A stretch of DNA of 64,000 nucleotides from Candidatus Blautia faecipullorum (GTDB lineage Bacteria > Bacillota > Clostridia > Lachnospirales > Lachnospiraceae): NCBI GenBank assembly GCA_019115125.1, contig DXEG01000008.1:21029-85028 (forward strand). The letters are read 5' to 3'. Positions 1-25,150 of the stretch are shown here, piece after piece (the stretch's first letter is position 1; each line of letters starts with the position of its first letter). The notes beneath the pieces are model-generated. The model searched no databases. It was not told where the DNA came from and saw nothing but the letters and a program-made list of their open reading frames with translations. The position numbers and the translations under genes are program-made.

Positions 1-43
1 TGATCCAAGAATTCGTCTGGCTGGCAGAGAGGGGGAGAAATAG
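1..43 (+). CDS. C-terminal end of an ABC transporter permease (partial)
   Basis: The window opens inside a reading frame whose last 13 codons read DPRIRLAGREGEK and stop at TAG 41-43. A DPRIRL-type ending is usual for the DppB/OppB permease of peptide/nickel-family importers, and the next gene is the partner DppC-type permease one base downstream. Only the tail is visible, so the call rests mostly on gene order. Confidence 0.55.
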   Translation, partial: DPRIRLAGREGEK

Positions 44-44
44 T

Positions 45-944
45 ATGAGCAAAAAAGAAATCTCCATGTCAAACAGCAAAAATTCACAGATGCGTACTTT
101 TTGGAGGACTTTTTTCAGCAGAGGAATTATTGTAAAGATTTCTCTGGTGATCGCAGTTGTTTTTGTACTGGTTTCTCTTTTAGCCAGCCCCATAAATACC
201 TATTTGCTTCATCAGGATCCTCTGGAAGTTGACCTTATGAATCTTTTTGCAGATTCTTCACGGGAGCATTTGCTGGGAACGGATCTTTACGGCAGGGATA
301 TCCTGGCCCGTATTGTCTCGGGCGCGCAAATGTCACTGATCTGCTCGGTGTTTTCCTGCCTTCTGGGAGCTGTGATAGGTATTATTTTAGGATTGATCGC
401 AGGGTATTTTGAGGGTGTTGTAGGTTCCGTGATCATGCGATATATCGATATTCAGATGTCAATACCGTCTCTGATATTTATTATTGTAATCAGTCTGATC
501 ACCGGGGAATCGCTATTTGGAGTGATTATGGCACTGGCTTTTGGACTGATCCCCAATTTTGTCAGAGTCATGTATGGACTTGTTCTCCAGCTCAAAGGAA
601 GCGATTATGTTACGGCGTCAAAACTGATAGGAGTATCTGAGGCAAAGATTATGATGAAGCATATCCTGCCAAATACGTTTCCGTCTATGATCGTCATGTT
701 TACGATGAGTCTGGGCAGTAATATCATGCTGGAATCTACATTGAGCTTTTTGAGCATAGGGATCAAAGTGCCCACGCCATCCTGGGGAAATATGATTTCG
801 GAGGGATACTCTTACATTATAAGAGGAGAATTGATGCTGTCTTTTGCGCCGGGCGTCTGCCTGATGCTGGTAGTGATCGCATTCAATATTTTAGGAGACG
901 CGCTGCGTGATTCGCTGGATCCAAGATTAAGGGGGAAGCTATGA
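45..944 (+). CDS. DppC/OppC-type ABC transporter permease
   Basis: This is the second membrane subunit of an ABC importer of the peptide/nickel family (299 aa). A hydrophobic segment lies at about residues 30-55. The extracellular region DLYGRDILARIVSGAQMS at about 78-95 is the hallmark that precedes the permease core of DppC/OppC proteins. Several further membrane segments follow, and the protein ends LDPRLRGKL as is usual for the family. GGGGGAG precedes ATG 45. It overlaps the next gene by 4 bases (ATGA), so the transporter genes are translationally coupled. No solute-binding protein is in the window; it probably lies to the left. The substrate cannot be read from sequence. The neighbours suggest it imports the substrate of the catabolic locus (inference). 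Confidence 0.9.
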   Translation: MSKKEISMSNSKNSQMRTFWRTFFSRGIIVKISLVIAVVFVLVSLLASPINTYLLHQDPLEVDLMNLFADSSREHLLGTDLYGRDILARIVSGAQMSLICSVFSCLLGAVIGIILGLIAGYFEGVVGSVIMRYIDIQMSIPSLIFIIVISLITGESLFGVIMALAFGLIPNFVRVMYGLVLQLKGSDYVTASKLIGVSEAKIMMKHILPNTFPSMIVMFTMSLGSNIMLESTLSFLSIGIKVPTPSWGNMISEGYSYIIRGELMLSFAPGVCLMLVVIAFNILGDALRDSLDPRLRGKL

Positions 945-1945
945 TGAGTGAAAGATTATTAGAGGTAAAAGATCTGTGCACATCCTTCTTTACTTATAAT
1001 GGAGAAGTGAAGGCGGTAAATCATGTAAGTTATTATCTGGATGAGCAGGAGATCATAGCGGTAGTTGGAGAATCCGGGTGCGGCAAATCGGTTACACAGA
1101 TGTCTGTCATGCAGATTATCCAGAGCCCTCCGGGAAGAATTATTGGAGGTGAAGTTCTATATAAAGGAAAAGATTTGCTGAAACTGACGACGGAGGAGAT
1201 GCGTTCTGTGCGCGGCGCAGAAATAGCAATGATTTTTCAGGAGCCTATGACAGCTCTGAATCCGGTAATCACGGTAGGAAAACAATTGACGGAAGTAATT
1301 CGGGCACATTCGTCTATGAATAAAAAACAGGCATGGGCCAAAGCGATAGAATCTTTGGAAGCGGTGGGAATACCGGATCCTGAAGCCCGAATGAAAAATT
1401 ATCCCTTTGAGATGTCGGGAGGAATGAGGCAGAGAGTATGTATTGCCATTGCTGTGGCCTGTAATTCAAAAATAATCATTGCAGATGAACCCACCACTGC
1501 TCTGGACGTGACGACACAGGCACAGGTTATGGAACTTCTGCAGGATGCAGTGGACAAATACAAAAAATCAGTACTTGTAGTAACTCATAATCTGGGGCTG
1601 GTGACCAGGTATGCCGGCAGGATCTATGTTATGTATGCGGGTCAGGTTGTAGAATCGGGTACAACGGAGGCATTGATGACCAATCCAAAACATCCGTACA
1701 CCGTGGGACTTTTGAAATCAGTTCCCAGTCTGGAAGATGAGAGAGGTAAAGCATTGGTTCCTATTGACGGAGCGCCGCCGAATCTGGCTGCTCTGCCGGA
1801 GACCTGTCCTTTCCTTCCAAGATGCAAATATGCCGCAGAAAAGTGCCGGAGCCGGAAAAAACCGGAATTGACTCTGATTGATGCGGAAACCCAGCATTAT
1901 ACTGCATGTTATGTTGAATTAAAGGAGGGTTTAAAAGATGAATAA
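941..1945 (+). CDS. DppD/OppD-type ABC transporter ATP-binding protein
   Basis: This is the first of two ATPase subunits that power the importer (334 aa). Walker A GESGCGKS lies at about residues 44-51 and the signature MSGGMRQR at about 151-158. Walker B follows as IIIADEPTTALDVT. The C-terminal oligopeptide/dipeptide cysteine motif CPFLPRCKYAAEKC is present; in this family it can bind an Fe-S cluster. The start overlaps the permease stop, and the 3' end overlaps the next ATPase by 8 bases. The position and both motifs make DppD/OppD the firm family call; the transported compound is unknown. Confidence 0.92.
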   Translation: MMSERLLEVKDLCTSFFTYNGEVKAVNHVSYYLDEQEIIAVVGESGCGKSVTQMSVMQIIQSPPGRIIGGEVLYKGKDLLKLTTEEMRSVRGAEIAMIFQEPMTALNPVITVGKQLTEVIRAHSSMNKKQAWAKAIESLEAVGIPDPEARMKNYPFEMSGGMRQRVCIAIAVACNSKIIIADEPTTALDVTTQAQVMELLQDAVDKYKKSVLVVTHNLGLVTRYAGRIYVMYAGQVVESGTTEALMTNPKHPYTVGLLKSVPSLEDERGKALVPIDGAPPNLAALPETCPFLPRCKYAAEKCRSRKKPELTLIDAETQHYTACYVELKEGLKDE

Positions 1946-2921
1946 TGAAATGAAAAATAATCCTCCTCTGCTGGAAGTTCGTGATTTAAAGATGTATTTT
2001 AGATCGGGAAAAGATTCGGTTGTAAAAGCTGTCGATGGTGTCAGCTTCAGAATTGACAAAGGAAAAGTGCTGGGATTGGTAGGAGAGTCGGGCTGCGGGA
2101 AAACCACCATAGGAAAGAGTGTTTTAAAAATCTATAATCCTACGGGTGGAGAAGTATTATACAAAGGTAAAGACATTCTGAAAATGTCGAAAGGCGAATT
2201 TAAAAAATACCGAAGATCATTGCAGATGATATTTCAGGATCCGTACAGCTCAATCGATCCAAGGCAGTCGGTGTTCAGTATTTTGAAAGAGGCGGTTTTG
2301 GCCGGCGGAGCTAAAATGAGTACAGGAGAGTTGAAAGATAAAGTCAATGGATATCTTGAAACGGTAGGGCTTCCTGTTGAAATGGGAAACAGGTATCCCC
2401 ATGAAATGTCCGGCGGTCAGAGACAGAGGCTGGGAATAGGAAGAGCTCTTGCCTGTGAACCGGAACTCATTGTCTGCGACGAACCGGTATCTGCTCTTGA
2501 CGTATCGATTCAGGCGCAGATCATCAACCTTTTTCAGCGAATCCAAAAAGATATGGGATATTTATTTATTGCCCATGATCTGGCTGTGGTGAGACATATT
2601 GCAGACGTGGTAGGCGTTATGTATCTGGGACATCTGGTAGAGATGATGGATTCAGAAGGGCTGTATGCAAATCCTATGCACCCATATACAATAGCCCTGC
2701 TTTCGGCAATACCGATCACAGATTACTATAAAGAAAAGCAAAGAAAGCGGATCATTCTCCAGGGAGAAGTTCCAAGCCCGCTGCATGCTCCGTCAGGCTG
2801 TCCGTTTCATCCGCGCTGCAGATATGCTACGGAAGAATGCCGACGGATATTGCCGGAATTAAAGGATATGGGGGCGGGACATATGGTAGCCTGTCATAAT
2901 GTTGAAAAAATAGCAGATTAG
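1938..2921 (+). CDS. DppF/OppF-type ABC transporter ATP-binding protein
   Basis: This is the second ATPase subunit (327 aa). It has Walker A GESGCGKT at about residues 51-58, Q-loop FQDPYSSIDPR, signature MSGGQRQR, Walker B LIVCDEPVSALD and the C-terminal cysteine motif CPFHPRCRYATEEC. It pairs with the preceding ATPase as a heterodimer, as in Dpp/Opp systems. GGAGG sits before ATG 1938, inside the end of the upstream gene. The gap to the following lyase gene is only 16 bases, so transporter and first catabolic enzyme are probably on one transcript. That links uptake to the pathway (inference). Confidence 0.92.
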   Translation: MNNEMKNNPPLLEVRDLKMYFRSGKDSVVKAVDGVSFRIDKGKVLGLVGESGCGKTTIGKSVLKIYNPTGGEVLYKGKDILKMSKGEFKKYRRSLQMIFQDPYSSIDPRQSVFSILKEAVLAGGAKMSTGELKDKVNGYLETVGLPVEMGNRYPHEMSGGQRQRLGIGRALACEPELIVCDEPVSALDVSIQAQIINLFQRIQKDMGYLFIAHDLAVVRHIADVVGVMYLGHLVEMMDSEGLYANPMHPYTIALLSAIPITDYYKEKQRKRIILQGEVPSPLHAPSGCPFHPRCRYATEECRRILPELKDMGAGHMVACHNVEKIAD

Positions 2922-2937
2922 AGAAAAGAGGGATGAT

Positions 2938-3900
2938 ATGTCGGCAAAAAAAACAATAAGACAATTACTTGAGAGAGGGGAATTTATCTGGGCTCCCTGT
3001 GTTTATGACTGTGTAAGCGCCAAATGTGCGGAAATTGCAGGATATAATGCCTGCCTGATCAGCAGTTGTGAGCTGGAATTCAGTATGAACGGGACGGTAG
3101 CCGGAGTGTTTAACTGGGAAGAATTTATTGGCGCTGCCTACAGGATTGCTCATGCAGTAAATATTCCTGTGATTATGGACGGGGAGAATGGCGGCGGTAC
3201 GCCGTCCAGAGTTTATCGAAACGTGAAACGGCTTGCTGAGGCTGGAATTATGGCAATTTCCATTGAAGACAGTAATACGGGAGGTATCTCCGGGGGATAC
3301 CACTATGGTTCAAGCAGGGGATTTATGAGCCGTGAGCTTTTTGCGGCAAACATTAAGGCTGCATGTGAGGCGGTAAAGGGTACGGACTGCATGATCATTG
3401 CCAGAACAGACTGCAAAGGAGGGGGAGCTCCCCAGATCGGCGCGATTGGTCAGGTAGGCGGTATGGGCCTGGATGAGGCCATTGCCCGGGTGAAGCTTGG
3501 GATAGAAGCCGGAGCGGAGATCACCATGATCCAAAATATCTGCCATGCAGACTGTGAGGAGGAATGTTTGAAAATAAAGGAGGAGGTGCCGGGATACAGA
3601 TTCTATCCTGATGTCCATGCGACAGATGAAAAACCGGATTGTACCTTCGAGCAAATGCAGGAATGGGGCTTCCACCTTGTATCAAATCATGTGTCCATGA
3701 AATCAGCCTGCAATGGGATGCTGGATGCCATGAGAAAAAATTATGAGGCTAAAAATAGCGTATACAGCGAAATTAATGATGTGCCGGGGATCATTCCACA
3801 TGAATTTCAGCCCTTTGCATTTGAGGAAGAGATTGCCCGGGACAAAATGTTTATACAGTATGAAAAAGATATGGCGGCAAAAGTACATGGATGCCGATAG
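2938..3900 (+). CDS. Isocitrate lyase/PEP mutase superfamily protein, substrate unknown
   Basis: A TIM-barrel protein of 320 aa in the superfamily that makes or breaks C-C or C-P bonds next to a 2-oxo acid carboxylate: methylisocitrate lyase, oxaloacetate decarboxylase, PEP mutase. The core reads IPVIMDGENGGG at about residues 77-88 where metal-binding members have a DxDxGxG motif, so the second acidic ligand is Glu. The sequence AISIEDS at about 105-111 matches the conserved ED motif. The KKCGH loop with the catalytic cysteine of true isocitrate lyases is absent; the region reads GSSRGFMSRELF. A non-isocitrate substrate is therefore likely. It is tightly linked to the ABC importer and followed by a strong terminator. 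2,3-dimethylmalate-lyase-like or decarboxylase activity are alternatives. Confidence 0.75.
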   Translation: MSAKKTIRQLLERGEFIWAPCVYDCVSAKCAEIAGYNACLISSCELEFSMNGTVAGVFNWEEFIGAAYRIAHAVNIPVIMDGENGGGTPSRVYRNVKRLAEAGIMAISIEDSNTGGISGGYHYGSSRGFMSRELFAANIKAACEAVKGTDCMIIARTDCKGGGAPQIGAIGQVGGMGLDEAIARVKLGIEAGAEITMIQNICHADCEEECLKIKEEVPGYRFYPDVHATDEKPDCTFEQMQEWGFHLVSNHVSMKSACNGMLDAMRKNYEAKNSVYSEINDVPGIIPHEFQPFAFEEEIARDKMFIQYEKDMAAKVHGCR

Positions 3901-3916
3901 GATGGCTTACCCAGGA

Positions 3917-3948
3917 AAACCTGACGGGATGATTTCCTGTCAGGTTTT
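3917..3948. terminator. Intrinsic terminator, probably bidirectional
   Basis: A perfect 10-bp stem AAAACCTGAC/GTCAGGTTTT encloses a 12-base loop. The A-rich left arm and T-rich right arm let it serve both the lyase gene on the plus strand and the convergent methyltransferase gene on the minus strand. Confidence 0.85.
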
Positions 3949-3983: not shown

Positions 3984-4952
3984 TTACCGAGTGCCGGGTG
4001 AGGAAATGCCGGAAATTTTTCTCCAGTATTCGCACAGTGCGGATATACGCGGATCATTTGGATCAGGAGTTACAATAATAGGAAAAAGTATATAATTATA
4101 TTCTTTTCCGTATTCGGACAGACACCGGTCGGCTTCTTTGAGAATCTGCTCCGTTGTCGCGTCAGGATATCCTGCGGGTCCGAAAGAATCCCAGCCGCCT
4201 TCGATGATCAGACGTCCTTTGTATTTCTTTTCCAGGAACGGTATATCGTTCATAACCTGGGCGGAGCTCCAGATCTGAACGCCCATTTCAACAAAGTCAT
4301 CCAGCACCTCCTCGCATTTGCCGCAGAGATGTTCGGCAACAATCACTCCTTTTGCCGAAATGGAGTGCAGAATGCGGGCCTGGTGAGGTTTGATGAGTTT
4401 TCGGTAAACCTGGGGGGACATGAACAGGCTTTGGGAGGTGGCAAAGTCGTCAAAATAAGTGACAACGTCCGGTTTATAAGCGTCGATCATTTTTTCAATA
4501 CATCGAATATTAAAATCAGCCATTTCACCGAAAAATTCATCGCAGGCTTCAGGGTCTTCAATAAGAGAGCATAAAGTGTTTTCAAAACCCATAAATGCAA
4601 CCATCCGCTGATAAAGTCCAACGGCAAAGTTTACATTAATTACTTTATCGCTGCGGTCGGTTCCCGCAAGATCTGTTTCGGCGGCTGCTTTAAAATCATA
4701 CATTGAGAGATCTGGAAAATGAACATACTGTTTCCAGTCAGCAATATCGTCAAACAGGATACACCCGGGCTTTGTGATTGCTCCTTCGGGAGTGATCACC
4801 CATTCTACCCCAAAAGCATCAGGTCCGTTTTTTTTCGGATGATTTACGAGACTGTCAGCAAGACCGCAGGTCTTATACAACTCATAATAAATAGGACGGA
4901 ATTCGGGAATTTTGCCATCGAGTAACAACTGAAAATTTTTTCTTTGGGTCAT
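3984..4952 (-). CDS. MtaA/CmuA-type (URO-D fold) corrinoid methyltransferase
   Basis: A 322-aa protein of the uroporphyrinogen decarboxylase fold. It carries the zinc-ligand pattern of cobamide:coenzyme methyltransferases rather than of HemE: H208-L-C210, with C213 nearby and C307 near the C-terminus. FDDF at 167-170 lies in the barrel region where family members bind substrate. Known relatives (MtaA, MtbA, CmuA) move a methyl group between a corrinoid protein and a thiol or methyl donor. A corrinoid protein and a methyl-THF transferase lie 4-6 kb away, so a role in methyl transfer is plausible. AAGGAGA precedes ATG 4952. It is transcribed alone, divergent from the dehydrogenase gene. A haem-synthesis role is unlikely. 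Confidence 0.7.
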   Translation of the reverse strand: MTQRKNFQLLLDGKIPEFRPIYYELYKTCGLADSLVNHPKKNGPDAFGVEWVITPEGAITKPGCILFDDIADWKQYVHFPDLSMYDFKAAAETDLAGTDRSDKVINVNFAVGLYQRMVAFMGFENTLCSLIEDPEACDEFFGEMADFNIRCIEKMIDAYKPDVVTYFDDFATSQSLFMSPQVYRKLIKPHQARILHSISAKGVIVAEHLCGKCEEVLDDFVEMGVQIWSSAQVMNDIPFLEKKYKGRLIIEGGWDSFGPAGYPDATTEQILKEADRCLSEYGKEYNYILFPIIVTPDPNDPRISALCEYWRKISGISSPGTR

Positions 4953-5111: not shown

Positions 5112-6113
5112 ATGGCAGATAAAGAATTATTAAAAGGAAAAGTAGCGATAGTAACGGGTTCCGGGCAGGGAGTGGGACGAGCTTTGGCAATCGCTTTAGC
5201 TGATCATGGAGCCATGGTGGTGACGAATAACCGCAGACCAGGGTCTACCGGAAATGCTATGCTCACAGAAGACCAGTATGACAGACTGTCCGATGAAAAA
5301 AAGGAATGGTATGACCGGGTACAGAAAGAGCTAAATGGAGATGCCGAGACTACAGCCCAGACTATCCGCCGTCGAGGCGGTGAGGCAACCGCATGTTTTG
5401 CGGATATTTCAAAATTTGACGAGGCCGACAGACTGATACAGACAGCGGTAAATACATACGGAGGGGTAGATATTCTATGTAATGTGGCGGGGGCATTTGG
5501 GATCTGCGACATTGACCAGATTAGCGAGGAACTATGGAATAAGGTTACAGATATCAAACCAAAAGGATACTTCCATACAATGCGTTTTGCTATTCCCCAT
5601 ATGAAAAAGAAGCATTTTGGGCGGATTATTAATTGTACCAGCCGAGCGTTTATGGGAGATGTAATTAAACACGCAGAATATTGCGCCGCGAATGCAGGAG
5701 TAGTGGGGCTGACCAGAGGAGCGGCTGTGGAGCTTAGGGAGTATGGGATCACATGCAATGCTTTTGGACCATTTGCCAAGACACGGGCAGCTTATGAGCT
5801 GGAAGCTCTGTCGCTTGCGTCAGAAAAGACGGTTCATTCCGAAGGAATGGGCAAGATTCCCACTTTTGAGCAGACTCCGGATCCATGCATGATTGTTCCT
5901 TTCCTTCTTTATCTGGCCTCGGACTACGGGGAGAAGATCAGTGGAAGTGTATTTACTCTTTCAGGAAATACGATACAGCTTCACCAGGAGCCTGTTGTGT
6001 GCCGGATGCTTGAAAAATTCGGAACAGAGCCCTGGACTGTGGAAGAAATAGTCAGGAGCGCGCCGCGGTCACTTTTGAAAAATTATCAGAGTATCGCCGA
6101 TGGAATCCTATAA
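5112..6113 (+). CDS. Short-chain dehydrogenase/reductase with altered catalytic lysine
   Basis: An NAD(P)-dependent oxidoreductase of the SDR superfamily (333 aa, longer than the usual 250). The nucleotide-binding motif TGSGQGVG is at residues 15-22, NVAG at 124-127 and the active-site serine region at about 177. The catalytic segment reads Y190-C-A-A-N194: Tyr is kept but the conserved Lys of YxxxK is Asn. About 30 extra charged residues (roughly 48-78) sit between the first strand and the second helix, and the C-terminus is extended. A good ribosome site (AAGGAG) precedes ATG 5112. It probably oxidises or reduces a hydroxyl/keto intermediate of the pathway, but loss of Lys may mean slow or different chemistry. 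Confidence 0.8.
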   Translation: MADKELLKGKVAIVTGSGQGVGRALAIALADHGAMVVTNNRRPGSTGNAMLTEDQYDRLSDEKKEWYDRVQKELNGDAETTAQTIRRRGGEATACFADISKFDEADRLIQTAVNTYGGVDILCNVAGAFGICDIDQISEELWNKVTDIKPKGYFHTMRFAIPHMKKKHFGRIINCTSRAFMGDVIKHAEYCAANAGVVGLTRGAAVELREYGITCNAFGPFAKTRAAYELEALSLASEKTVHSEGMGKIPTFEQTPDPCMIVPFLLYLASDYGEKISGSVFTLSGNTIQLHQEPVVCRMLEKFGTEPWTVEEIVRSAPRSLLKNYQSIADGIL

Positions 6114-6272: not shown

Positions 6273-8720
6273 ATGTATGCTTTTAAACCAGTAACAGCAC
6301 GGATTAACAAGATGCACATGTTAATTCGAGACAGAGTGATTCAGACAGATGCAGAACGGGCCATGATCACAACGGAGTTTGTGAAGGAAAATGAATATAT
6401 GGTTCCTTTTCTCCGCCGTCCCATGATCTTAAAATCCATATGTGAAAAAATGACGATTCGTGTGGAAGATTTTGAGCTTATTGTGGGGAATACTTCTAAG
6501 AATTTTTGCGGAGCAGGGATTCAGCCGGATTGGACGGGAAGTGGATGGATCCCGGAAGCGATAGAAGAGGGCAGATGGACGCTTAAAGAAGATGGACTGT
6601 ACCATAATCCGGAATCGGATGGACTGCCTATGTCCATGGCGCTGGAGGATTATAAAGCGCTGATATCTATCCGGGATTACTGGAAAGGACGCACATACAG
6701 TGACGTGGCGGCATCCTGGCAGCCCCAGGGATATGAGGAGCTATGTCGTGTCAACGTATCGGCTACCCGGACGGGGATGCCTTTGTTGAATATTCCTTCC
6801 GGACACCTGACCGCAGGTTTCAAAAAAATAATAAACAAAGGTTACCGTTCGATCAGAAGTGAAGCTCAGGACTGGCTGGACAGTCATGTAAATGATTTAA
6901 TGGGGGCAGATGCGGAAAAAGCAATGTTTTATACGGCGGCGGTGATCGTATGCGATGCGGCATCTGTTTATGTACGGCGTTATGGGGAAAAATGTCTGGA
7001 AAAATCAGAAAAATGTCAAAACGAAAACCGTAAAGAAGAATTGAAGACTATGGGAGAAAGTCTTTTGTGGATTTCAGAAAATCCGTGCAGAACCTTCTGG
7101 GAAGCCTGCCAGCAGGCAATTCTTTATCAGCATTTACTGAAAATGTCAAATCTGGGTGACGCAGGATCCTTTGGCAGGTTTGACCAATACACCTGGCCTT
7201 ATCTGAAAAAGGAGCTGGAGGAAGGCACATTGACAATGGAACAGGCTCAGGAGATCACAGACGCGTTTTTTTTGAAGATTAACTCCATGTATACAGGAGG
7301 AGATCCGAAGATCGTGCAGATTACTGGAATTGGAAATACATATCTCCATACCACGCTTGGAGGAACGGATCCGGAAACCGGGGAGGATGCGTCGAATCCC
7401 GTGACTTATATGGCCCTGGAAAGTGTCGGCCGTCTTGGGCTACATGATCCTACCATTTCTCTCAGGATCAACAAAGATACTCCGGATAGTCTTTGGAAAC
7501 TTGCCATTGAGACATCACGGCGTGTAGGCGGACTTCCATTGTTCCAGAATGATGATGTGATTGTGCCTGGGATAGTAAGAGAGATGGGATTTTCATTGAA
7601 GGATGCCAGAGACTATGCGATTATAGGATGCCAGGAAATCACTGGTTCTGGTAATGATTATTCTGCGGCGAATGGAGTAGTTCCTCCGCATGCCACTATT
7701 CATTATAGTATTGTCCTGGATATGGCGATCAATAATGGGATAAATCCAATGAATGGAGAACAGTGCTCCATTCATACAGGATATTTGTATGAAATGACTT
7801 CTTTTGAGGAAGTAAAAGCAGCATGGGCAAAACTGGCAGAGTATTTTCTCAGGGCGCAGGTTTCTTTAAATAACTGTATGGAATATTTTGTACAGTATCT
7901 GACTCCCCATGCAATTCTTTCCATTTCACTGGAAGGATGTATGGAGTCTGGAAAGGACTGCACTGCCGGAGGGGCAAAATATAATTCTTACGGCGGTACA
8001 GCTACCGGACTGGCTACCGTAGCGGATTCTCTGACTGCGATCAGATATATGTGTTTTGACAAAAAGCTTTGTACCACAAAGGAACTTTATGATGCAGTAA
8101 TGGCAAACTGGGAAGGGTATGAACCACTGCGCCAGCAGATTATCAATGAAGTGCCTCATTTCGGCAATAATGATCCCTATGCAGATGAGCAGATGCAGTG
8201 GGTTGTAACTGTTTATGCGGATATGTGCTGCAGGTGTTCTTCAAGCCGGACCCCAATTTTTAAAGCCGGATTGTACGGTGCGGCGGATCATGTGCATCAG
8301 GGGTACACGACATGGGCGACACCGGACGGGCGATTCGCGGGACAGCCTATTGCGGATGCGGCCAGTCCGGTACAGGGGCGTGATACTCATGGGCCAACGG
8401 CGGTTTTTTCATCTTCGCTGTGTTATGATCATTCGCGGTTTATGGATGGCGTGTGTCTGAATATCCGTATGCATCCCTCTGCCCTCAGTAATGAAGAAGG
8501 AATTTGCAAACTTCGGGATATGATCAAGACATATATGCAGGACGGCGGAGCGGAGGTACAGTTTAACGTAGTATCTACAGAGACAATGAAAAAAGCTCAG
8601 GAAAAACCTGAGGAATACCGCAATCTGGTCGTCCGGATAGCCGGGTACTCTGCTTATTTTGTGGAGCTGTCCAAAGATTGTCAGGATGACCTGATCGCGA
8701 GAAATGAGAATATGATCTGA
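6273..8720 (+). CDS. Glycyl radical enzyme 1 (C-x-E class, substrate unknown)
   Basis: A member of the pyruvate formate-lyase-like superfamily (815 aa, usual size). The C-terminal glycyl radical motif is VRIAGYSAY with Gly791. The thiyl-radical loop is IIGCQEITGSG with Cys453 and Glu455. A single Cys followed by x-Glu is the dehydratase/lyase arrangement (glycerol and propanediol dehydratases, choline lyase, hydroxyproline dehydratase), not the CC pair of pyruvate formate-lyase. Gln between Cys and Glu is less usual than Val. It is colinear without gaps with the GRE at 10369 and more distant from the one at 19113. Activation is expected from the radical SAM protein at 17122. No microcompartment-targeting extension or shell gene is present. 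The substrate is not predictable from sequence. Confidence 0.92.
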   Translation: MYAFKPVTARINKMHMLIRDRVIQTDAERAMITTEFVKENEYMVPFLRRPMILKSICEKMTIRVEDFELIVGNTSKNFCGAGIQPDWTGSGWIPEAIEEGRWTLKEDGLYHNPESDGLPMSMALEDYKALISIRDYWKGRTYSDVAASWQPQGYEELCRVNVSATRTGMPLLNIPSGHLTAGFKKIINKGYRSIRSEAQDWLDSHVNDLMGADAEKAMFYTAAVIVCDAASVYVRRYGEKCLEKSEKCQNENRKEELKTMGESLLWISENPCRTFWEACQQAILYQHLLKMSNLGDAGSFGRFDQYTWPYLKKELEEGTLTMEQAQEITDAFFLKINSMYTGGDPKIVQITGIGNTYLHTTLGGTDPETGEDASNPVTYMALESVGRLGLHDPTISLRINKDTPDSLWKLAIETSRRVGGLPLFQNDDVIVPGIVREMGFSLKDARDYAIIGCQEITGSGNDYSAANGVVPPHATIHYSIVLDMAINNGINPMNGEQCSIHTGYLYEMTSFEEVKAAWAKLAEYFLRAQVSLNNCMEYFVQYLTPHAILSISLEGCMESGKDCTAGGAKYNSYGGTATGLATVADSLTAIRYMCFDKKLCTTKELYDAVMANWEGYEPLRQQIINEVPHFGNNDPYADEQMQWVVTVYADMCCRCSSSRTPIFKAGLYGAADHVHQGYTTWATPDGRFAGQPIADAASPVQGRDTHGPTAVFSSSLCYDHSRFMDGVCLNIRMHPSALSNEEGICKLRDMIKTYMQDGGAEVQFNVVSTETMKKAQEKPEEYRNLVVRIAGYSAYFVELSKDCQDDLIARNENMI

Positions 8721-9703: not shown

Positions 9704-9709
9704 ACAAAA

Positions 9710-16928: not shown

Positions 16929-17121
16929 GCTGTCGCCCTCCTTTAAATCTTTTTATGATGAAAGTATAAAAAAAGTCGAGAGAAATTACAAGCTTATTTA
17001 GTTGATATTATTAAAATATGTCTGTTAATAAAAGGGCGAAAGGATATGAGAAATACCAGAAGATGCCACGGGATAAAAAATGCAGTATAGATACAGCGAT
17101 GCAAAAAACGGAGGAAAAGAT

Positions 17122-18081
17122 ATGCCAGAAAAACCGATTATAGGACATATTTATGATATTCAGGGCTATTCTGTACATGATGGTCCTGGTATAAGAACAA
17201 CTGTCTACACGAAGGGATGTCCGCTGCGCTGCCTGTGGTGCCATAGTCCGGAATCACAGACATTTAAAGACGAACTGTCCTGTATGCTGATGAGATGTGT
17301 CGGTACTGAAAAATGCGGCCTTTGCCTGAAGGCGTGCCCGCGAAATGCAGTTCTGCCGTCAAAGCCAGAAAAGTCCCTTTTAGACGAAGGAGAACTGATC
17401 ACAAAAGTACATATTGACAGAGAAAAGTGCGACAACTGCCTTGCATGTACGAAGGCATGTCCCGCTCAGGCGCTTATGTCAAGCGGATATGACATTTCAG
17501 TAGAGGACGCACTGCAGAGAGTACTCCAGGATAAAGCCTTTTTTGGTGAGGATGGCGGAATTACAATTTCCGGTGGGGAGCCAATGGCACAGTTTGAATT
17601 TACCTATGAACTTGCCAGAAAAAGTAAGCTGGCGGGAATTTCTGTATGTATTGATACGACAGGATGCTGTGAGGGAACACTTTTTGATCAAATGATCCCT
17701 GTTACAGATTTGTTTTTGTATGATCTGAAACATATGGATTCACAGAAAAGCAGGCGGCTGACCGGAGTTGGAAATGAAAAAATTCTTGATAATGCCCGAA
17801 GAATTGCTGCGGGAGGGGGAAAACTTCAGATTCGTGTTCCTACAATACCGAAGCTGAACGCGGATATGGAGAATATGAGGCGTACCGCGGAGTTTTGTAA
17901 AGAATTGGGAGACGCGGTGACCCTTGTGCAGATTCTTCCGTATCATAGGATGGGAATTCCTAAATATGAGAGACTGGACCGCAAATACCCGGTTCCGAAT
18001 ATTGACGCGCCGTCAGACAATTTTATGGAAGAAAGACTTGCGGTATTCCGGGAGCTGGGTCTACCGGTTCAATTACATTAA
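17122..18081 (+). CDS. Glycyl radical enzyme activase (radical SAM)
   Basis: A radical SAM enzyme (319 aa) that installs the glycyl radical. The SAM cluster motif is C33-x3-C37-x2-C40 in KGCPLRCLWCHSPES. A ferredoxin-like insert with two further cysteine clusters follows (C54-C72 region; C103-x2-C106-x2-C109-x3-C113), as in activases of dehydratase-type GREs. SAM-binding GGE is in ISGGEP. The frame is open upstream to an ATG at 17080, but GGAGG at 17110-17114 is well placed for ATG 17122, which also begins the conserved domain. It is the only activase in the window, so it probably serves all three GREs. Confidence 0.92.
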   Translation: MPEKPIIGHIYDIQGYSVHDGPGIRTTVYTKGCPLRCLWCHSPESQTFKDELSCMLMRCVGTEKCGLCLKACPRNAVLPSKPEKSLLDEGELITKVHIDREKCDNCLACTKACPAQALMSSGYDISVEDALQRVLQDKAFFGEDGGITISGGEPMAQFEFTYELARKSKLAGISVCIDTTGCCEGTLFDQMIPVTDLFLYDLKHMDSQKSRRLTGVGNEKILDNARRIAAGGGKLQIRVPTIPKLNADMENMRRTAEFCKELGDAVTLVQILPYHRMGIPKYERLDRKYPVPNIDAPSDNFMEERLAVFRELGLPVQLH

Positions 18082-18107: not shown

Positions 18108-19085
18108 ATGAAAAAAATGGTGTCTTTATTTGCAAAAAGAAATGAGCTCTACACAATGCTGAATGAGAAAGCGCGGATTTATGCGGCGGAAAAGGGAATT
18201 GATTTTGAATGGAAGCCAATGGAACCCTACACAGTTGAGGCTTGTATTGATGCCCTAAAGGATGCGGACTGCGGCCTGATCGATGTAGAGCCTTATGATG
18301 CGAAGATTTTTTCCCGAATATGTGAAAGGAACAAGCTGCTGATCCGTTTTGGCGTGGGATTCGACGCGGTGAATCTTGAGGATGCCGCAAAATATGGGAT
18401 CCGGATCGCCCGGACTCAGGGGGCAAATGCTTCGGCGGTTGCGGAGTACGCGTTGTTAATGATTCTCACTCTCCGGCGGAAGCTTATGGCTGGTATCCAA
18501 AGCGTAAGATGCGGAAGCTGGGAAAAGGAAGTGGGAAATGAAACAATTGGCGCAACGGTGGGAATTCTTGGATTTGGCGCGGTGGGAAAGGCATTCGCGA
18601 GACTTTTGGGAGGATTTGGCTGCCGTATTTTGGCTTATGATACTTACCAGGATCAAATTGCTGCTAAAGAGCTTGGAGTGGAATTTACAGATGCAGAAAC
18701 CATATTTCGTGAATGTGATTCCATCACTGTTCATTTGGCGTTAAATGAAAATACAAGGGGATTTGTAAATGAGGAAAGACTGGCGCTGATGAAAAAAGAC
18801 GCGGTGATCGTGAATACGTCCCGCGGTCCGGTGATCGATGATGCGGCATTATTGGCTGTCTTGAAGAACCATCAGATTGGCGGCGCGGGACTGGATGTCT
18901 TTGCCCAGGAACCGCTTCCGCTGGATTCAGAATATCTGACACTGGACAATATGATCTATTCTCCCCATGCGGCAAGCCAGTCCGTTCAGTCCCTATGGAA
19001 TATATATAAAACGGCGATAGATATTGCGGATGGATTTTTCACAGGTAATGAATCAGAGTTTGTAAAGAGATGCTGGCTGAACTGA
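18108..19085 (+). CDS. D-2-hydroxyacid dehydrogenase (NAD-dependent)
   Basis: A 325-aa member of the D-isomer-specific 2-hydroxyacid dehydrogenase family (phosphoglycerate, glycerate and hydroxypyruvate dehydrogenases). The NAD-binding motif GFGAVG is at 155-160. The catalytic Arg lies in VNTSRGPVIDD, the Glu in the DVFAQEPLP segment and the catalytic His in SPHAASQS. An Asp (AYD178) at the end of the second strand favours NAD over NADP. It would interconvert a 2-oxo and a D-2-hydroxy acid, linking the pathway to the 2-oxo acid chemistry of the lyase at 2938 (inference). AAAGGAG precedes ATG 18108. Confidence 0.87.
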   Translation: MKKMVSLFAKRNELYTMLNEKARIYAAEKGIDFEWKPMEPYTVEACIDALKDADCGLIDVEPYDAKIFSRICERNKLLIRFGVGFDAVNLEDAAKYGIRIARTQGANASAVAEYALLMILTLRRKLMAGIQSVRCGSWEKEVGNETIGATVGILGFGAVGKAFARLLGGFGCRILAYDTYQDQIAAKELGVEFTDAETIFRECDSITVHLALNENTRGFVNEERLALMKKDAVIVNTSRGPVIDDAALLAVLKNHQIGGAGLDVFAQEPLPLDSEYLTLDNMIYSPHAASQSVQSLWNIYKTAIDIADGFFTGNESEFVKRCWLN

Positions 19086-19112: not shown

Positions 19113-21512
19113 ATGTATGAATTTAAACCATTGACAGACCGCATAAAAAAACTCAGAGAACGCTACAGGACGACGCCCGTAGTGCTGGACTCAGAGCATG
19201 CCCGTCTGGTAACAGAGGCATATAAGAAATATTCACATGAATGTGCAATTTTGAAGCGCGCCAAAATGATGTACTATATCTGCGAAAACCGGACGCTGAG
19301 GGTGGAAGAAGACGAACTGATCGTTGGAAACATGGGACTCCATTACCGTGGAACCAGTATCAACCCGGATTATGGAATGGAGTGGCTGATTGATGAATTG
19401 GATACCGGAGAATTTGATAAACGCGGCGTGCAGTTGGAGCACATGGAGCTGTCCCGGGAGGACCGGGAAGTTTTTCGGGAGATAGCTCCATTCTGGAAAG
19501 AAAACAGCGCTTCCGCTTTTATTGATAAGGCTTTTCCGCCGGGGTTTGAAACAGTTTTAGATGCCGGTGTTTTATCTCACAGAGTTAAAGGCAATGCAGA
19601 TATGCCCACAGGACATTTTTCTGCGAATTATGAAAAGCTTTTGTCCAAAGGCCTGTCCGCAATCCGCCAGGAAGCCACGGATAAACTGGACGCCATGTTT
19701 GGAAATATTCAGGCCGAAGATCCGGAGAAATATCTGTTCTACGAGGCTATGGTAATCATCTGCGACGCAATGATTCTGCTTGCAAAGCGTTATGCATCAC
19801 TTTGTTTAAGAAAAGCGGAGCAGGCGGAGGGAAAAAGGAAGAAGGAACTGCTGATCATGGCGGACTCTCTTAACCGTATTATGGCAAATCCCTGCGTCAC
19901 ATTTCAGGATGCAGTGCAGGCAACCTTTTTATACCAGCTTGTTCTGGCGCTGGATGGAAATCTTCATGGTCTTACATTCGGACGCTTTGACCAATATGCA
20001 TATCCATATCTTGAAAAAGATCTTCGCGAGAAACGCATTTCAGAAGAGTATGCCCAGGAACTCGTAGACTGCTTTTTTATTAAAATATGCGACATGTTCA
20101 AAGGCCGCTCGCATTTTGTTTCCCAGGGAGCGGGCGGATACACCTCGGGACAGCAGATGAGTCTGGGCGGAGTGGATAAGGAGGGAAAGGATGCTACCAA
20201 TAAACTTTCGTATATGCTTTTAGAAGCAAGCGCCCGTCTGGTACTGCATTCTCCGCCCCTTTCGCTGCGTATTCATAAAAATACGCCAAAAAAATTATGG
20301 GAATGTGCTACAGAATGTACCAAACGTGTCGGGGGGATCCCTACATTTCAAAATGACGATATCATTATTCCAATGATGGTTAGAGAAGGGTATACTCTTG
20401 AGGACGCCAGAGATTACTGTATCGTAGGCTGTGTAGAACCCTCGGGATCGGGAAATGATTTTCCTGCCTGCGGCGGGCCTCATGCAAAGTGCTACTTGAA
20501 TATGACAAATTGTTTGATCGTTGCCCTGAACGACGGAATAAATCCATTGAATGGAAAACAGAGTGGCCTTCATACAGGCAAGCTGTTAGAAATGACCAGC
20601 TTTGAGCAGGTGCTTGAGGCATATAAACGTCAGAATGATTATTTTGTTCAGTGGCATATCTCGCTTAATAATATGGCTGAGTATTTTACGCAAAAGCTTT
20701 TGCCATTGCCAGCGCTGTCTGTAACCCTGGATCATTGTATGGAATCCGGAAAGGACGCGACGGCAGGCGGGGCAAAATATAATGGCTGCGGAAGCGCGGT
20801 TATAGGCTGCGGAACAGTTGCAAACAGTCTTGCGGCGATAAAATGGGCAGTTTTTGATAAGAAAATCTGTACAGCACAGGAATTCTATCATGCGTGGATG
20901 GCGAATTGGAAAGGCCATGAGGAACTGCGGCAGAGAATCATTACTCAGGCACCCCACTATGGAAACGGATCCGAGGAGGCAGATCGTCTGGCTGCCTGGG
21001 CGATGGATATTTACGCACAGAAGTATAACAGCGGATCATTTATCAGAGGAAATCTCAAAGCAGGGCTTTTCTCGGTTTCCGGGCATATCCCGATGGGGAA
21101 AAGCACTTTTGCGTCCCCGGATGGCCGCCTGTCCGGAGAACCAGTATCTGACGGTATTTCACCCTCCCAGGCTACGGATAAAAAAGGTCCGACGGCAGTT
21201 CTTACAGGAGTTGCAAAGCTTAAACAAAGCCATTGTCCGAATGGAACGTTGCTGAATATGAAATTTCATCCGAAATCTGTAGAAGGCCAGGAGGGAATGG
21301 AAAAACTGATCCGTTTAGTGCAGACCTATTTTGCAGAGGGCGGTATGCATATCCAATATAATGTTATTGGATCGGATACTTTGAGAGCCGCCCAGAAAGA
21401 GCCTGACAGGTACAGGGATCTGGTGATCAGAGTGGCTGGATTTTCCGCCTATTTTGTTGAACTTTACAAGGATCTCCAGGATGATTTGATCAGTCGTACG
21501 GATCAGATATAA
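19113..21512 (+). CDS. Glycyl radical enzyme 3 (dehydratase/lyase class)
   Basis: A third glycyl radical enzyme, 799 aa. The catalytic loop is IVGCVEPSGSGNDF with Cys440 and Glu442, the GCVEP form typical of dehydratases and lyases. The radical motif is IRVAGFSAY with Gly776; the usual Tyr after Gly is Phe. It is related to the other two GREs along its whole length but has gaps against them in the N-terminal half and around residues 330-350, so it is a separate lineage rather than a recent copy. It sits in the operon with the activase and hydroxyacid dehydrogenase. AAAGGAG precedes ATG 19113. The substrate is unknown. Confidence 0.92.
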   Translation: MYEFKPLTDRIKKLRERYRTTPVVLDSEHARLVTEAYKKYSHECAILKRAKMMYYICENRTLRVEEDELIVGNMGLHYRGTSINPDYGMEWLIDELDTGEFDKRGVQLEHMELSREDREVFREIAPFWKENSASAFIDKAFPPGFETVLDAGVLSHRVKGNADMPTGHFSANYEKLLSKGLSAIRQEATDKLDAMFGNIQAEDPEKYLFYEAMVIICDAMILLAKRYASLCLRKAEQAEGKRKKELLIMADSLNRIMANPCVTFQDAVQATFLYQLVLALDGNLHGLTFGRFDQYAYPYLEKDLREKRISEEYAQELVDCFFIKICDMFKGRSHFVSQGAGGYTSGQQMSLGGVDKEGKDATNKLSYMLLEASARLVLHSPPLSLRIHKNTPKKLWECATECTKRVGGIPTFQNDDIIIPMMVREGYTLEDARDYCIVGCVEPSGSGNDFPACGGPHAKCYLNMTNCLIVALNDGINPLNGKQSGLHTGKLLEMTSFEQVLEAYKRQNDYFVQWHISLNNMAEYFTQKLLPLPALSVTLDHCMESGKDATAGGAKYNGCGSAVIGCGTVANSLAAIKWAVFDKKICTAQEFYHAWMANWKGHEELRQRIITQAPHYGNGSEEADRLAAWAMDIYAQKYNSGSFIRGNLKAGLFSVSGHIPMGKSTFASPDGRLSGEPVSDGISPSQATDKKGPTAVLTGVAKLKQSHCPNGTLLNMKFHPKSVEGQEGMEKLIRLVQTYFAEGGMHIQYNVIGSDTLRAAQKEPDRYRDLVIRVAGFSAYFVELYKDLQDDLISRTDQI

Positions 21513-21546
21513 AGAGAGGTGACCTGCTATAACTGAAAAAGGGCCG

Positions 21547-22896
21547 TTGCAGCATGAAGAAAATAAAATGGGAGTAAGGCCCGTTCCAAGACTGCTGATC
21601 ACTATGGCCGTGCCCATTATGATTTCCATGTTGGTACAGGCTTTATATAATATTGTGGACAGTATTTTTGTCGGGCATCTTTCGTCAGAGGCTTTGACAG
21701 CAGTTTCTATGTCCTATCCCTTTCAGACGCTTATTGTAGCAGTCGGCAGCGGCCTCTCCATCGGTATCAATGCATATTTATCCAGAAGCCTCGGAGAAGG
21801 AGAGCTAAAAAAAGCCAATGCGGCAGCAGTAAATGGAATATTTCTCAGCTTTGTGGTTTATGTGCTGTTTGCAATATTTGGAATATTTGGAAGCCATTTT
21901 TATTTTGCCGCCCAGACTGGTCAGAAAGAAATCATAAAATATGGAACAGACTATCTTTCGGTTTGCCTTACCTTTTCGTTAGGAGCTTTTATGCAGATGA
22001 CAATGGAAAGATTGCTGCAGTCTACCGGAAATACAGTGCACTGTATGGTCTGTCAGGGTGTCGGGGCGGTTATGAATATTGTTTTAGATCCGCTGCTGAT
22101 TTATGGATTGCTGGGATTTCCAAGACTGGAGGTTATGGGAGCTGCCGCCGCTACTGTGATCAGCCAATTTGTAGGCGCGTGTACGGGCTTGTACCTGAAT
22201 ATACGTAAAAACAGAGAAATCAGGTTTTACTTTAGGGGATTCAGGCCGGATTTTCCTATTATCTGGGAAATCTGTAAAGTAGGAATACCGACAATGATTA
22301 CACAGTCTTTGGCATCTGTCATGACTTTTTCGCTGAATCAGATCATGCTCATGTTTTCGTCGGTGGCAGTTTCAGTGCTTGGTGTGTATTTCAAACTTCA
22401 GAGTTTTGTATTTCTGCCGGTTTCCGGTATTACAGACAGCATGGTTCCTATCGTTGCCTATAACTATGGAGCAAAAAGAAAAAAGAGGATCACGGATGCC
22501 CTGTTTTTTGCCACGCTTGTTTCAACAATCATTCTATGTTTGGGTTCTGTGATGTTCCATATTGTACCGGAAACATTGATTGGGCTGTTCAGCACGGATA
22601 TACGGATGCTGAAGCTGGGAGTTCCTGCTGTGAAAGCAATTAGCCTGAGTTATGTATTTGCCGGGGTAACGGCGATTTTTCCGGCGTTCTTCCAGGCGCT
22701 TGGATATGCGGTATACAGTACATTGTTATCGGCAATACGCAGAATCGGCATTATCGTTCCGGTCTCCTGGATTCTGGCGTCGCAGTTTGGGCTTGGAGCT
22801 GTGTGGTACGCTTTTCCTATTGCCGAGTTTGTTACCATGACATTATGTTTCCTTTTGTACAGAAGGATTTACCGTTCAGTAATTAAAAAGATATAA
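21547..22896 (+). CDS. MATE-family efflux transporter (non-ATG start)
   Basis: A 12-helix multidrug and toxin extrusion protein of about 449 aa, with the family N-terminal pattern KMGVRPVPRLL then ISMLVQALYNIVDSIFVGHL. It exports organic cations or metabolites using Na+ or H+ gradients, here perhaps pathway side products. The start is unclear. In this frame 21547 is TTG with only a weak AAAGGG before it, and the first ATG (21568) has no ribosome site. A strong AGAGGTGA at 21514-21521 is ideally spaced for ATA at 21529, which would give xTEKGPLQHEENKMG. The last gene of the GRE3 operon. Confidence 0.85.
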   Translation: MQHEENKMGVRPVPRLLITMAVPIMISMLVQALYNIVDSIFVGHLSSEALTAVSMSYPFQTLIVAVGSGLSIGINAYLSRSLGEGELKKANAAAVNGIFLSFVVYVLFAIFGIFGSHFYFAAQTGQKEIIKYGTDYLSVCLTFSLGAFMQMTMERLLQSTGNTVHCMVCQGVGAVMNIVLDPLLIYGLLGFPRLEVMGAAAATVISQFVGACTGLYLNIRKNREIRFYFRGFRPDFPIIWEICKVGIPTMITQSLASVMTFSLNQIMLMFSSVAVSVLGVYFKLQSFVFLPVSGITDSMVPIVAYNYGAKRKKRITDALFFATLVSTIILCLGSVMFHIVPETLIGLFSTDIRMLKLGVPAVKAISLSYVFAGVTAIFPAFFQALGYAVYSTLLSAIRRIGIIVPVSWILASQFGLGAVWYAFPIAEFVTMTLCFLLYRRIYRSVIKKI

Positions 22897-22983
22897 AGCG
22901 CGGAAGAAAATACAGCCGATATATATCATAATTTTTAGTATTACCTATAAATGAAAAGGGGAAATTTTAAGGAGGAAAAAGCT

Positions 22984-23973
22984 ATGCTGACAAAAAGAGA
23001 AAATCTTATGGAAACCATTCAGGGAGGTCATCCAGACAGATATGTGAATCAGTACGAGGCGTTTCATATAGTTTCTAAGAATCCATATTCCGCTAATAAT
23101 CCGAACCCTGAATATGGCGGTAAGCCAGTTGTGAATGCATGGGGAATTATGAGAGCCTGGCCGGAAGGCACACCGGGAGTATTTCCGGTTCATGATGAGG
23201 AGCATACTGTCTGCAAAGATATTACAGAGTGGAAAAAATATGTAAAAGCGCCTTCCGTTCAATATACAGCCGAAGAATGGGAGCCTTACATCAAGATGGC
23301 AGAGGAAGTGGACCGCCGTGAATATTTTGTTACACATTTCTGCGCGCCGGGAATATTCGAACAGCTTCACAATCTTCAGGGGATGCAGGACTGTCTGATC
23401 AATTTTTATGAAGAACCGGAGGCGACGCAGGAATTAATTGATTATCTTGTTCAATGGGAACTGGAGTATGCAGAGGTGATCTGCAGATATCTGAAGCCGG
23501 ATGCTGTACTGCACCATGACGATTGGGGGAGCCAGATATCTACGTTTATGTCACCGGAAATGTTTAAGGAATTTTTATATCCCGGGTATAAGAAAATATA
23601 TAGTTATTATAAGAGCCATGGCGTACAGGTAATCGTTCATCATTCGGACTCTTATGGCGAAACCTTGGTTCCTTACATGATCGACATGGGGATCGATATA
23701 TGGCAGGGAGTTATGACCAGCAATGATATTCCCGGGATTATCGAGAAATATGGCGGAAAAATTACATTGATGGGCGGAATCGACAGTGCTTCCGTAGACC
23801 GGGAGGATTGGAACCAGGAACTGATTGCCCGGGAAGTGCGTAAATCCTGTCTGTCTTACGGTACAAGATATTATATCCCGTGCTGTACACAGGGACTTCC
23901 AATGAGTATTTATCCGGGAGTACATGAGGCGGTTACAGCGGAAATTGATAAAATGAGTAAGGAAGTTTTCTGA
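22984..23973 (+). CDS. URO-D-fold protein, candidate substrate:corrinoid methyltransferase
   Basis: A 329-aa protein of the uroporphyrinogen decarboxylase fold. The metal-site region differs from the gene at 3984: VHHSDSYGE (H219, H220, D222) replaces HxC, and a CC pair occurs at 300-301. HHDDWGS at 177-183 is the conserved barrel motif. URO-D-fold proteins of this kind occur as methyltransferase I of O-demethylase systems, which take a methyl group from the substrate to the corrinoid protein. That role would complete the set with the proteins at 8809 and 9710 (inference). The frame extends upstream to ATG 22951, but AAGGAGG at 22969-22975 points to ATG 22984. Confidence 0.7.
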   Translation: MLTKRENLMETIQGGHPDRYVNQYEAFHIVSKNPYSANNPNPEYGGKPVVNAWGIMRAWPEGTPGVFPVHDEEHTVCKDITEWKKYVKAPSVQYTAEEWEPYIKMAEEVDRREYFVTHFCAPGIFEQLHNLQGMQDCLINFYEEPEATQELIDYLVQWELEYAEVICRYLKPDAVLHHDDWGSQISTFMSPEMFKEFLYPGYKKIYSYYKSHGVQVIVHHSDSYGETLVPYMIDMGIDIWQGVMTSNDIPGIIEKYGGKITLMGGIDSASVDREDWNQELIAREVRKSCLSYGTRYYIPCCTQGLPMSIYPGVHEAVTAEIDKMSKEVF

Positions 23974-24154
23974 TTGTTTTTGATTTATTTCCGCGTAATA
24001 TGACTAAATGAATGAGAGGAAGTTTGTCATATGTGAGCAGGCGGCAGTTTTTTTGGCATAAAATGACAGAAATTTTTGGAAAACAAGTTGCATTTCAATT
24101 TGTAATTGGCTAAGATAAAGTATAAGCATTTTTTGGAAATAATTGGAGATCAGC

Positions 24155-25150
24155 ATGACTATATATGATATTGCCAAACTAGCTGGAGTATCCGCCAGTA
24201 CAGTGTCCAGAGTGATCAATAATAAGAAGGGCGTAGGAGAAAAAAAGCGCAGGGAAATAGAAGAGCTGCTCGAAAAACTTCATTACATACCGGACGAAAA
24301 CGCCCGTAACCTTGTGACACAGAAAACACATATGATCGGAATACTCATGGATGACCTTCAGTCGCGCCATATGAATACAGGTACCGTTGATATTCAGAAT
24401 GTAATTCTGCGGGCCGGCTATTATTGCTTCATCAAATATATTGGTCAGGGGGAGAACGCCCTGGAGGAATCAATTAAAGATATGGCAATGAAAAGAGTGG
24501 AGGGTGTTTTGTTGATGGGAGTTACTTTCCATAATCACCAACTTCTGGAAAAGGCTCTGAGGAAATATCTGAGAGATATCCCGGTTATTCTTGTACACCA
24601 GACGAAACGCCCGCAGATGGACAATGTCTATGCGGTAGGCGCGGATGAGAGCGAAGGTATCAGAAGATGTGTGAGGAAACTTGCTGACCGTGGAAGAAGA
24701 AATCTGGTACTTGTGATCGATAAAGGCAGAACCAGTAAGAAATTGATCAGAGATTCATTTATGGAAGCAGTCAGGAATATACCGGGTATAGAGGGACATG
24801 TTTATATGGAGGTGGACGCCACAAGATCCGGAGGGGAAGGTATTGTAGAAACAATTTTAGAAGATACCCCCGGCGTTGACGGAATGCTTTGTGTAAACGA
24901 CAGTATTGCGATTGGGACAATTTATGGTATGCAGAGCAAAGGTAAAAGAGTACCGGAAGACATTTCTGTAATAGGCGAGGATAATTCGGAATTGTGTGAA
25001 GCTTGTAAACCGCGGCTGACATCTATGGATACTATGCTGAGATTATCCACCGTTTTGTCCGCCCATCTTCTTACAGATATTCTTGATGGAAGAACCCGTA
25101 ACCATCAGACCACAATGGAAATGGAAATTATAGACCGGGAAACGGTATGA
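24155..25150 (+). CDS. LacI-family transcriptional regulator
   Basis: A 331-aa regulator. The LacI helix-turn-helix reads YDIAKLAGVSASTVSRVIN from residue 3 and the hinge NARNLVTQKT follows. The periplasmic-binding-protein-like effector domain fills the rest. A TTG-initiated longer frame exists from 24143, but GGAG at 24145-24148 fits ATG 24155. LacI proteins usually sense a sugar or related small molecule and repress nearby operons. AA-N-CG-N-TT cores before the dehydrogenase (4992) and first GRE (6224) are candidate targets. It is followed by a strong hairpin, so it closes the catabolic locus. Confidence 0.9.
   Translation: MTIYDIAKLAGVSASTVSRVINNKKGVGEKKRREIEELLEKLHYIPDENARNLVTQKTHMIGILMDDLQSRHMNTGTVDIQNVILRAGYYCFIKYIGQGENALEESIKDMAMKRVEGVLLMGVTFHNHQLLEKALRKYLRDIPVILVHQTKRPQMDNVYAVGADESEGIRRCVRKLADRGRRNLVLVIDKGRTSKKLIRDSFMEAVRNIPGIEGHVYMEVDATRSGGEGIVETILEDTPGVDGMLCVNDSIAIGTIYGMQSKGKRVPEDISVIGEDNSELCEACKPRLTSMDTMLRLSTVLSAHLLTDILDGRTRNHQTTMEMEIIDRETV

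Follow-up and report, generated by a model that had tools for sequence, protein, structure and literature searches.

A Blautia gene island combining glycyl radical enzymes of a distinct subfamily with a corrinoid methyl-transfer pair

The DNA stretch of Candidatus Blautia faecipullorum analyzed here (the window, 64 kb of contig DXEG01000008.1, whose positions are used throughout) harbors in nt 1–25150 an island encoding three glycyl radical enzymes (GRE1 to GRE3), a methyl-tetrahydrofolate (methyl-THF):corrinoid methyltransferase (MeTr), a corrinoid protein (CP) and two URO-D proteins (UROD1 and UROD2). As judged by DNA identity, the MeTr–CP pair, sited between GRE1 and GRE2, duplicates a demethylase pair located elsewhere in the genome. 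The best reading of the locus, to which we give an even chance, is that of a catabolic island with which an acetogen degrades a plant compound bearing methyl groups, probably as methoxy substituents, by means of a corrinoid demethylase arm and a C–O lyase arm formed by GREs. The locus may represent a hitherto undescribed way of degrading methylated plant compounds without oxygen. To our knowledge, the enzymes that dismantle methoxylated plant aromatics anaerobically past simple demethylation are poorly known, and open-access titles and abstract openings yielded no description of GREs and O-demethylation in one pathway. The gene identities, the intact catalytic residues, the distinct GRE subfamily, the acetogen markers, the duplication of the pair and the genome-level association are established below; the C–O lyase chemistry, the part played by UROD2, the sequence of reactions and the class of substrate are our proposal.

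In the proposed pathway, the importer would take up the methylated plant-derived compound. UROD2 as methyltransferase I, CP, and MeTr as methyltransferase II, with a reactivase from elsewhere in the genome, would transfer the methyl of the substrate to THF and so feed acetyl-CoA synthesis. The activase would put the radical on GRE1 and GRE2, which would act by 1,2-elimination, as diol dehydratases do, and cleave a C–O bond beside a carbinol carbon; water, an alcohol or a phenol would leave, and a carbonyl compound would remain. The latter could be handled by the flavoenzyme, the iron-containing alcohol dehydrogenase (Fe-ADH), the SDR oxidoreductase, the hydroxyacid dehydrogenase and the ICL-type lyase. 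Aromatic ethers or alcohols as the substrate fit the organisms that carry such GREs, and polyols fit the MFS_2 transporter of a related locus and the nearest enzymes.

A GRE subfamily marked by GCQE

GRE1, GRE2 and GRE3 are intact, with the active-site Cys and Glu and the glycyl-radical motif all kept. The motif GCQE at the active-site cysteine is present in 91 of 91 subfamily sequences, and Val replaces the Gln in all 23 other GREs compared. All three enzymes score under every listed NCBIfam GRE cut-off (CutC, HypD, sulfopropanediol dehydratase, decarboxylases, PFL). By these sequence features GRE1 and GRE2 are members of a distinct subfamily marked by GCQE, which supports, as far as the NCBIfam-characterized GREs are concerned, the separate GRE cluster that an earlier note on this DNA had proposed to look for. 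The subfamily has no assigned function in the libraries searched, and its partnership with a demethylase is unusual.

The closest folds to GRE1 and GRE2 are, by a narrow margin, the glycerol and 1,2-propanediol dehydratases, which are B12-independent GREs. Shared with these are the fold, the Cys-x-Glu site, the glycyl-radical loop and the equivalent of His178, which aligns with glycerol dehydratase His164; Glu455, two residues beyond the Cys, is also kept. The differences comprise an identity of about 31–32%, GCQE in place of GCVE, and changes at position 296 and in the stretch 466–472. Furthermore, no microcompartment shell families were found among the 39 Pfam-scanned proteins (19 island genes in the window, 10 upstream and 10 downstream), the remaining genes of the genome not having been searched. 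The positions aligned with glycerol dehydratase His281 and Asp447 are altered, indicating that the group recognized by GRE1 and GRE2 differs from glycerol. The retained His178 and Glu455 and the fold suggest a C–O lyase chemistry, and the protein of nt 17080–18081, encoded by the single activase gene in nt 1–25150, presumably activates both enzymes. Choline TMA-lyase CutC, a GRE acting on a methylated substrate, has Asp at the position of His178 and performs C–N cleavage, and GRE1 scores 408 bits against a CutC cut-off of 1050.

The GCQE GREs as a whole are best read as a putative C–O lyase family of demethylating anaerobes. Through its signature, this subfamily, to which NCBIfam assigns no function, can be linked with degraders of methoxylated aromatics, Sporobacter termitidis among them. 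If these GREs cleave lignin-type ethers or dehydroxylate phenol-derived rings, they would bring new chemistry to the oxygen-free breakdown of lignin and polyphenols.

The corrinoid arm and its duplicate

The host genome has three matches to CdhC (acetyl-CoA synthase) and three to the corrinoid reactivase, the latter all on contigs other than that of the window. The CdhC-type genes and the three reactivases indicate that the host is probably an acetogen. On host contig C5 (L131), a reactivase, MeTr, CP and a UROD2 relative stand in one row, the last three being 97%, 96% and 49% identical to their counterparts in the window. The MeTr–CP block of the window displays 89.3% DNA identity to the C5 copy across 1580 bp. 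The genus mates G013 and G037 likewise group a reactivase, MeTr, CP and a UROD2-type gene; at E ≤ 1e-100, GRE1 finds no match in G013, and the GRE of G037 is only 31% identical to it. Of the 64 genomes examined in the genus, 28 have UROD2 relatives (E ≤ 1e-60) and 2, host counted, have close GRE1 relatives (at least 81% identity). UROD2 lies 12.6 kb from CP in the window, and its relatives are within a few kb of the reactivase, CP and MeTr in L131, L142 and L126.

The protein families and the host make demethylation to methyl-THF likely, and the methyl transfer to THF envisaged in the earlier note gains support from the CdhC-type genes of a probable acetogen and from the duplicated pair. UROD2 would act as methyltransferase I. 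The motif E-X14-E-X20-H, which we take to be the zinc motif of O-demethylases, has one match in UROD2; it was judged to be due to chance, being found in 1 of 25 related proteins and in neither UROD1 nor the closest relatives of UROD2. A GRE acting as direct methyl donor to the corrinoid was also considered and dropped, as nothing supported it.

The island shares with the corrinoid O-demethylases (MtvABC, Odm and Vdm, and the archaeal Mto, PMC8630106) the URO-D, CP and MeTr-type proteins, a reactivase elsewhere in the genome, and a host with acetogen marker genes. It differs in that its MeTr–CP pair is set between two GREs and that phmmer found no relative of UROD2 in the PDB, CdmB included. 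The chloromethane system CdmBCA of Acetobacterium, according to PMC13222342, also combines a URO-D methyltransferase I, a CP and an MT2. CdmB is described there as a corrinoid methyltransferase I. Its relatives MtvB, OdmB and VdmB remove methyl groups from methoxylated aromatics, which CdmB itself does not do; the term "glycyl" is absent from the accessible text of that paper. CdmB is related to the URO-D protein of the Alkalibacter GRE operon (E 2.7e-21), with no match to UROD2 of the window.

Genome-level association and carrier organisms

In a survey of 393 genomes of the class (GRE1-type at E ≤ 1e-200, the listed matches being 52–100% identical; reactivase at E ≤ 1e-20), GRE1-type genes were present in 7 genomes of 4 genera, host counted, and reactivases in 167. 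At least three reactivases, counted as rows, were present in 19 genomes, which include all 7 with GRE1 (nominal p 1.9e-10, kinship ignored) and 12 without it. At the genus level, 4 of 4 GRE1 genera are among the 11 of 219 (p 3.5e-6, kinship again ignored). HypD, another GRE that served as control, occurs in 39 of the 393 genomes, 3 of them among the 19. At the level of genomes, this GRE type goes together with corrinoid methyl metabolism, in support of the earlier note.

Named carriers of GCQE GREs include Sporobacter termitidis, Acetobacterium paludosum, Sporomusa acidovorans, Alkalibaculum sporogenes M08DMB and Alkalibacter mobilis M17DMB, as well as a Papillibacter metagenome-assembled genome (MAG) and numerous MAGs of ruminant-gut or other origin. 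The open-access literature yielded nothing on the metabolism of the DMB strains M08DMB and M17DMB. Growth of S. termitidis is reported on methoxylated aromatics only (PMC4585845 and PMC8359953). Its genome has 3 GCQE GREs, 13 GREs in total and 30 URO-D genes. Among 14 hand-picked GRE-bearing genomes, the number of URO-D genes (E ≤ 1e-5) ranges from 4 in the host, the lowest, to 33. The sheep-gut Oscillospiraceae MAGs G459 (L037), G460 (L038) and G461 (L050), of 2.4, 2.0 and 1.8 Mb, have 24, 29 and 16 GRE matches, some of which are contig-end fragments, and 20, 15 and 14 URO-D genes, respectively; they represent an extreme case of GRE expansion.

Several neighbors of these GREs were also recorded. 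The nearest Sporobacter relative of GRE1 (L026:10001-16382) is followed by the C1-pathway genes for an RnfC-type and a methylenetetrahydrofolate-reductase-like protein. In L039 of S. termitidis, a TPP-dependent enzyme and an SDR accompany two tandem GCQE GREs; together these proteins could perhaps open a cyclic 1,2-dione. In L027, genes for 3HCDH, acyl-CoA dehydrogenase, enoyl-CoA hydratase and Etf stand 3′ of a GCQE GRE, followed by a MoaF-domain protein, with orthologues in L028 (the protein scan covered L027 of this pair). A MoaF-related protein also lies within 150 bp of a GCQE GRE in L037, L038 and L049. A flavoprotein family occurs in five GRE loci; its member in L034 resembles vinylphenol reductase and fumarate-reductase-like enzymes, well under their cut-offs.

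Gene neighborhoods and alternative explanations

The neighborhoods of 80 related GRE loci were compared, with genes called by tblastn and a codon-bias caller over 1,134 kb of examinable flank, many contigs ending early. URO-D genes number 25, spread over 20 of the 80 loci; 15 lie no more than 3 kb from the GRE, where 37% would be expected, and the other 10 lie at 3–10 kb (p 0.017); without the near-duplicates L071 and L060, 13 of 22 are within 3 kb (p 0.030). Also close to the GRE are activases (12 of 16 within 1 kb), other GREs (18 of 24 within 3 kb) and OYE flavoenzymes (10 of 16 within 3 kb). In a set of 8 GRE loci of 6 genomes (L132–L139), 3 loci have a URO-D gene within 3 kb and 2 have one at about 7 kb, while the other 3 yielded none. 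One of 80 loci (L099) has a reactivase, below the AcsV cut-off and above that of RACo. A compact operon is found repeatedly: in Alkalibacter mobilis (L092:2361-12445), it runs from an MFS_2 transporter through 3-hydroxyacyl-CoA dehydrogenase, thiolase, CoA transferase, SDR and URO-D, in this order, to a GCQE GRE. Genome G447 (L136) retains this gene order at 69–86% identity without the thiolase, a weak 23% thiolase match lying beyond the GRE. URO-D also adjoins the GRE in G142. The conserved GRE–corrinoid neighborhood without which the earlier note would have given up the pathway is largely absent for CP and MeTr; it is seen for URO-D genes, which stand beside GREs in other lineages.

Several observations weigh against the favored explanation. 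CP and MeTr each occur in 1 of the 80 loci, together in L035 with a UROD2 relative, and the GRE–corrinoid gene linkage is not generally conserved. The pair itself is a copy of that on C5, and UROD1 too looks like a later insertion: no UROD1 lies between ICL and SDR in L023 of the sister genome G047, so that it was probably inserted in the window or lost in L023. Moreover, two of the carriers have relatives, Sporomusa termitida and Acetobacterium woodii, that are described as demethylating with no ring cleavage (PMC8359953), which argues against ring breakdown as a universal role. The duplication, the rarity of the linkage and the insertion would be expected if a spare MeTr–CP copy had landed in a GRE operon and were merely co-expressed there, functionally unrelated to the GREs. 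We consider this rather unlikely, since the two copies keep 96–97% protein identity at 89% DNA identity, suggesting selection on both, and a URO-D paralogue is present in the same island. In L035, which belongs to a different GRE lineage, the CP, UROD2 relative and MeTr are on the opposite strand, running towards the GRE; a MeTr relative (50% identity) lies about 4.5 kb from the GRE in G447; and the pairing of URO-D with GRE recurs in other lineages.

GRE1 and GRE2 might also be dehydratases that act after demethylation on a polyol, a sugar-like or a ring-reduced (hydroaromatic) diol instead of an ether, the methyl ether being present on the imported compound only. This possibility deserves serious attention, though we place it short of an even chance; it overlaps with the favored explanation, and the probabilities of the two do not sum to one. 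The narrowly nearest folds are in line with it, as are related loci with a sugar-type MFS_2 transporter, SDRs, flavoenzymes and the TPP enzyme of L039. Also in line with it are the CoA transferase, 3-hydroxyacyl-CoA dehydrogenase and thiolase of L092 and the butyrate-type genes of L027 and L028, which suggest a product entering thiolysis. However, the changed equivalents of His281 and Asp447 speak against a dehydratase of the glycerol type. The GCQE GREs could instead be anaerobic ether lyases for lignin-type compounds, radiated in ruminant-gut bacteria and the termite-derived Sporobacter. Here the thiyl radical would abstract hydrogen from the carbinol of an aryloxy alcohol and an aryloxide such as guaiacol would be expelled, and the partner corrinoid methyltransferases would next demethylate the freed methoxyphenol. 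We regard this proposal as improbable. On Acetobacterium enzymes that cleave ethers, the open-access literature gave no useful information. The substrate might also be an N-methylated amine, one of the examples given in the earlier note, or a betaine, processed along the lines of the corrinoid pathways for glycine betaine and choline. The CP scores best with methylamine- and betaine-type corrinoid models, and the choline-lyase GREs are relatives. Yet among the 39 scanned proteins there is no MttB-type methyltransferase, which makes such a substrate less likely; the methyltransferase-I candidates there are of URO-D type, and choline lyase has Asp where GRE1 and GRE2 carry His178. This last alternative is thus very improbable.

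Organization of the island

The importer, the three GREs, the activase, MeTr, CP, the two URO-D proteins and the other enzymes and regulators listed in the earlier note were all recovered as open reading frames in nt 1–25150, with the families stated there, by the ORF list and profile searches (Table 1). The starts at nt 6273 (GRE1), 9710 (CP) and 12833 (OYE) coincide exactly with its positions. Its ICL-superfamily lyase can be specified as PEP-mutase/ICL type, the best PDB relatives being petal death protein and 2,3-dimethylmalate lyase.

Table 1. Island genes within the window (UROD1 and LysR are the only two of the 19 on the minus strand).
Feature	Position (nt)	Strand	Remarks
Opp/Dpp-type ABC importer	45–2921	+	permease 45–944; ATPases 941–1945 and 1938–2921
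ICL	2938–3900	+	PEP-mutase/isocitrate-lyase superfamily lyase
UROD1	3984–4952	-	URO-D family, HxCG motif
SDR oxidoreductase	5112–6113	+	
GRE1	6273–8720	+	GCQE subfamily; PFL-like and Gly_radical domains
MeTr (MT2)	8809–9612	+	348.5 bits; NCBIfam cut-off 259
CP	9710–10345	+	MtgC/MtbC-like; 211.8 bits, just under generic model cut-off 215.3
GRE2	10369–12816	+	GCQE subfamily, 72% identity to GRE1; PFL-like and Gly_radical domains
OYE/BaiCD-type flavoenzyme	12833–14809	+	455 bits; BaiCD cut-off 825
Fe-ADH	14837–16006	+	
LysR regulator	16035–16928	-	
GRE activase	17080–18081	+	radical SAM with extra ferredoxin-type clusters; 302.5 bits; TIGR02494 cut-off 174.35
D-2-hydroxyacid dehydrogenase	18108–19085	+	
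GRE3	19113–21512	+	other GRE subfamily (GCVE), 44% identity to GRE1; PFL-like and Gly_radical domains
MATE exporter	21547–22896	+	
UROD2	22951–23973	+	URO-D protein, probable methyltransferase I
LacI regulator	24143–25150	+	

The intergenic gaps are 88, 97, 23, 16 and 27 bp from GRE1 to Fe-ADH, and 26, 27, 34 and 54 bp from the activase to UROD2; given these short gaps, each block looks like a single transcription unit. The island starts upstream of the window; located there are the importer binding protein (L005:18377-19981), a second permease at or just upstream of the window start, a second ICL-type lyase (L005:17263-18231) and an additional radical-SAM protein about 4 kb before the window (L005:15841-16824).

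Sister genome G047 has OppF–ICL–SDR–GRE1 in L023 and GRE3–UROD2–LacI–Fe-ADH in L140, indicating that both island flanks are common to the host and G047; both contigs end before the site where the corrinoid pair would lie. In L023 the ICL is 90% identical to that of the window and adjoins SDR and GRE1. The SDR is 77% identical in L023, 65% in L086 and 63% in L077. A relative of Fe-ADH (42–43%) lies directly 3′ of a GCQE GRE in L031. About 8.5 kb past the island, nt 33641–36738 of the window encode proteins of the 2-hydroxyacyl-CoA dehydratase/benzoyl-CoA-reductase type (HGD-D, and a BcrAD ATPase with HGD-D).

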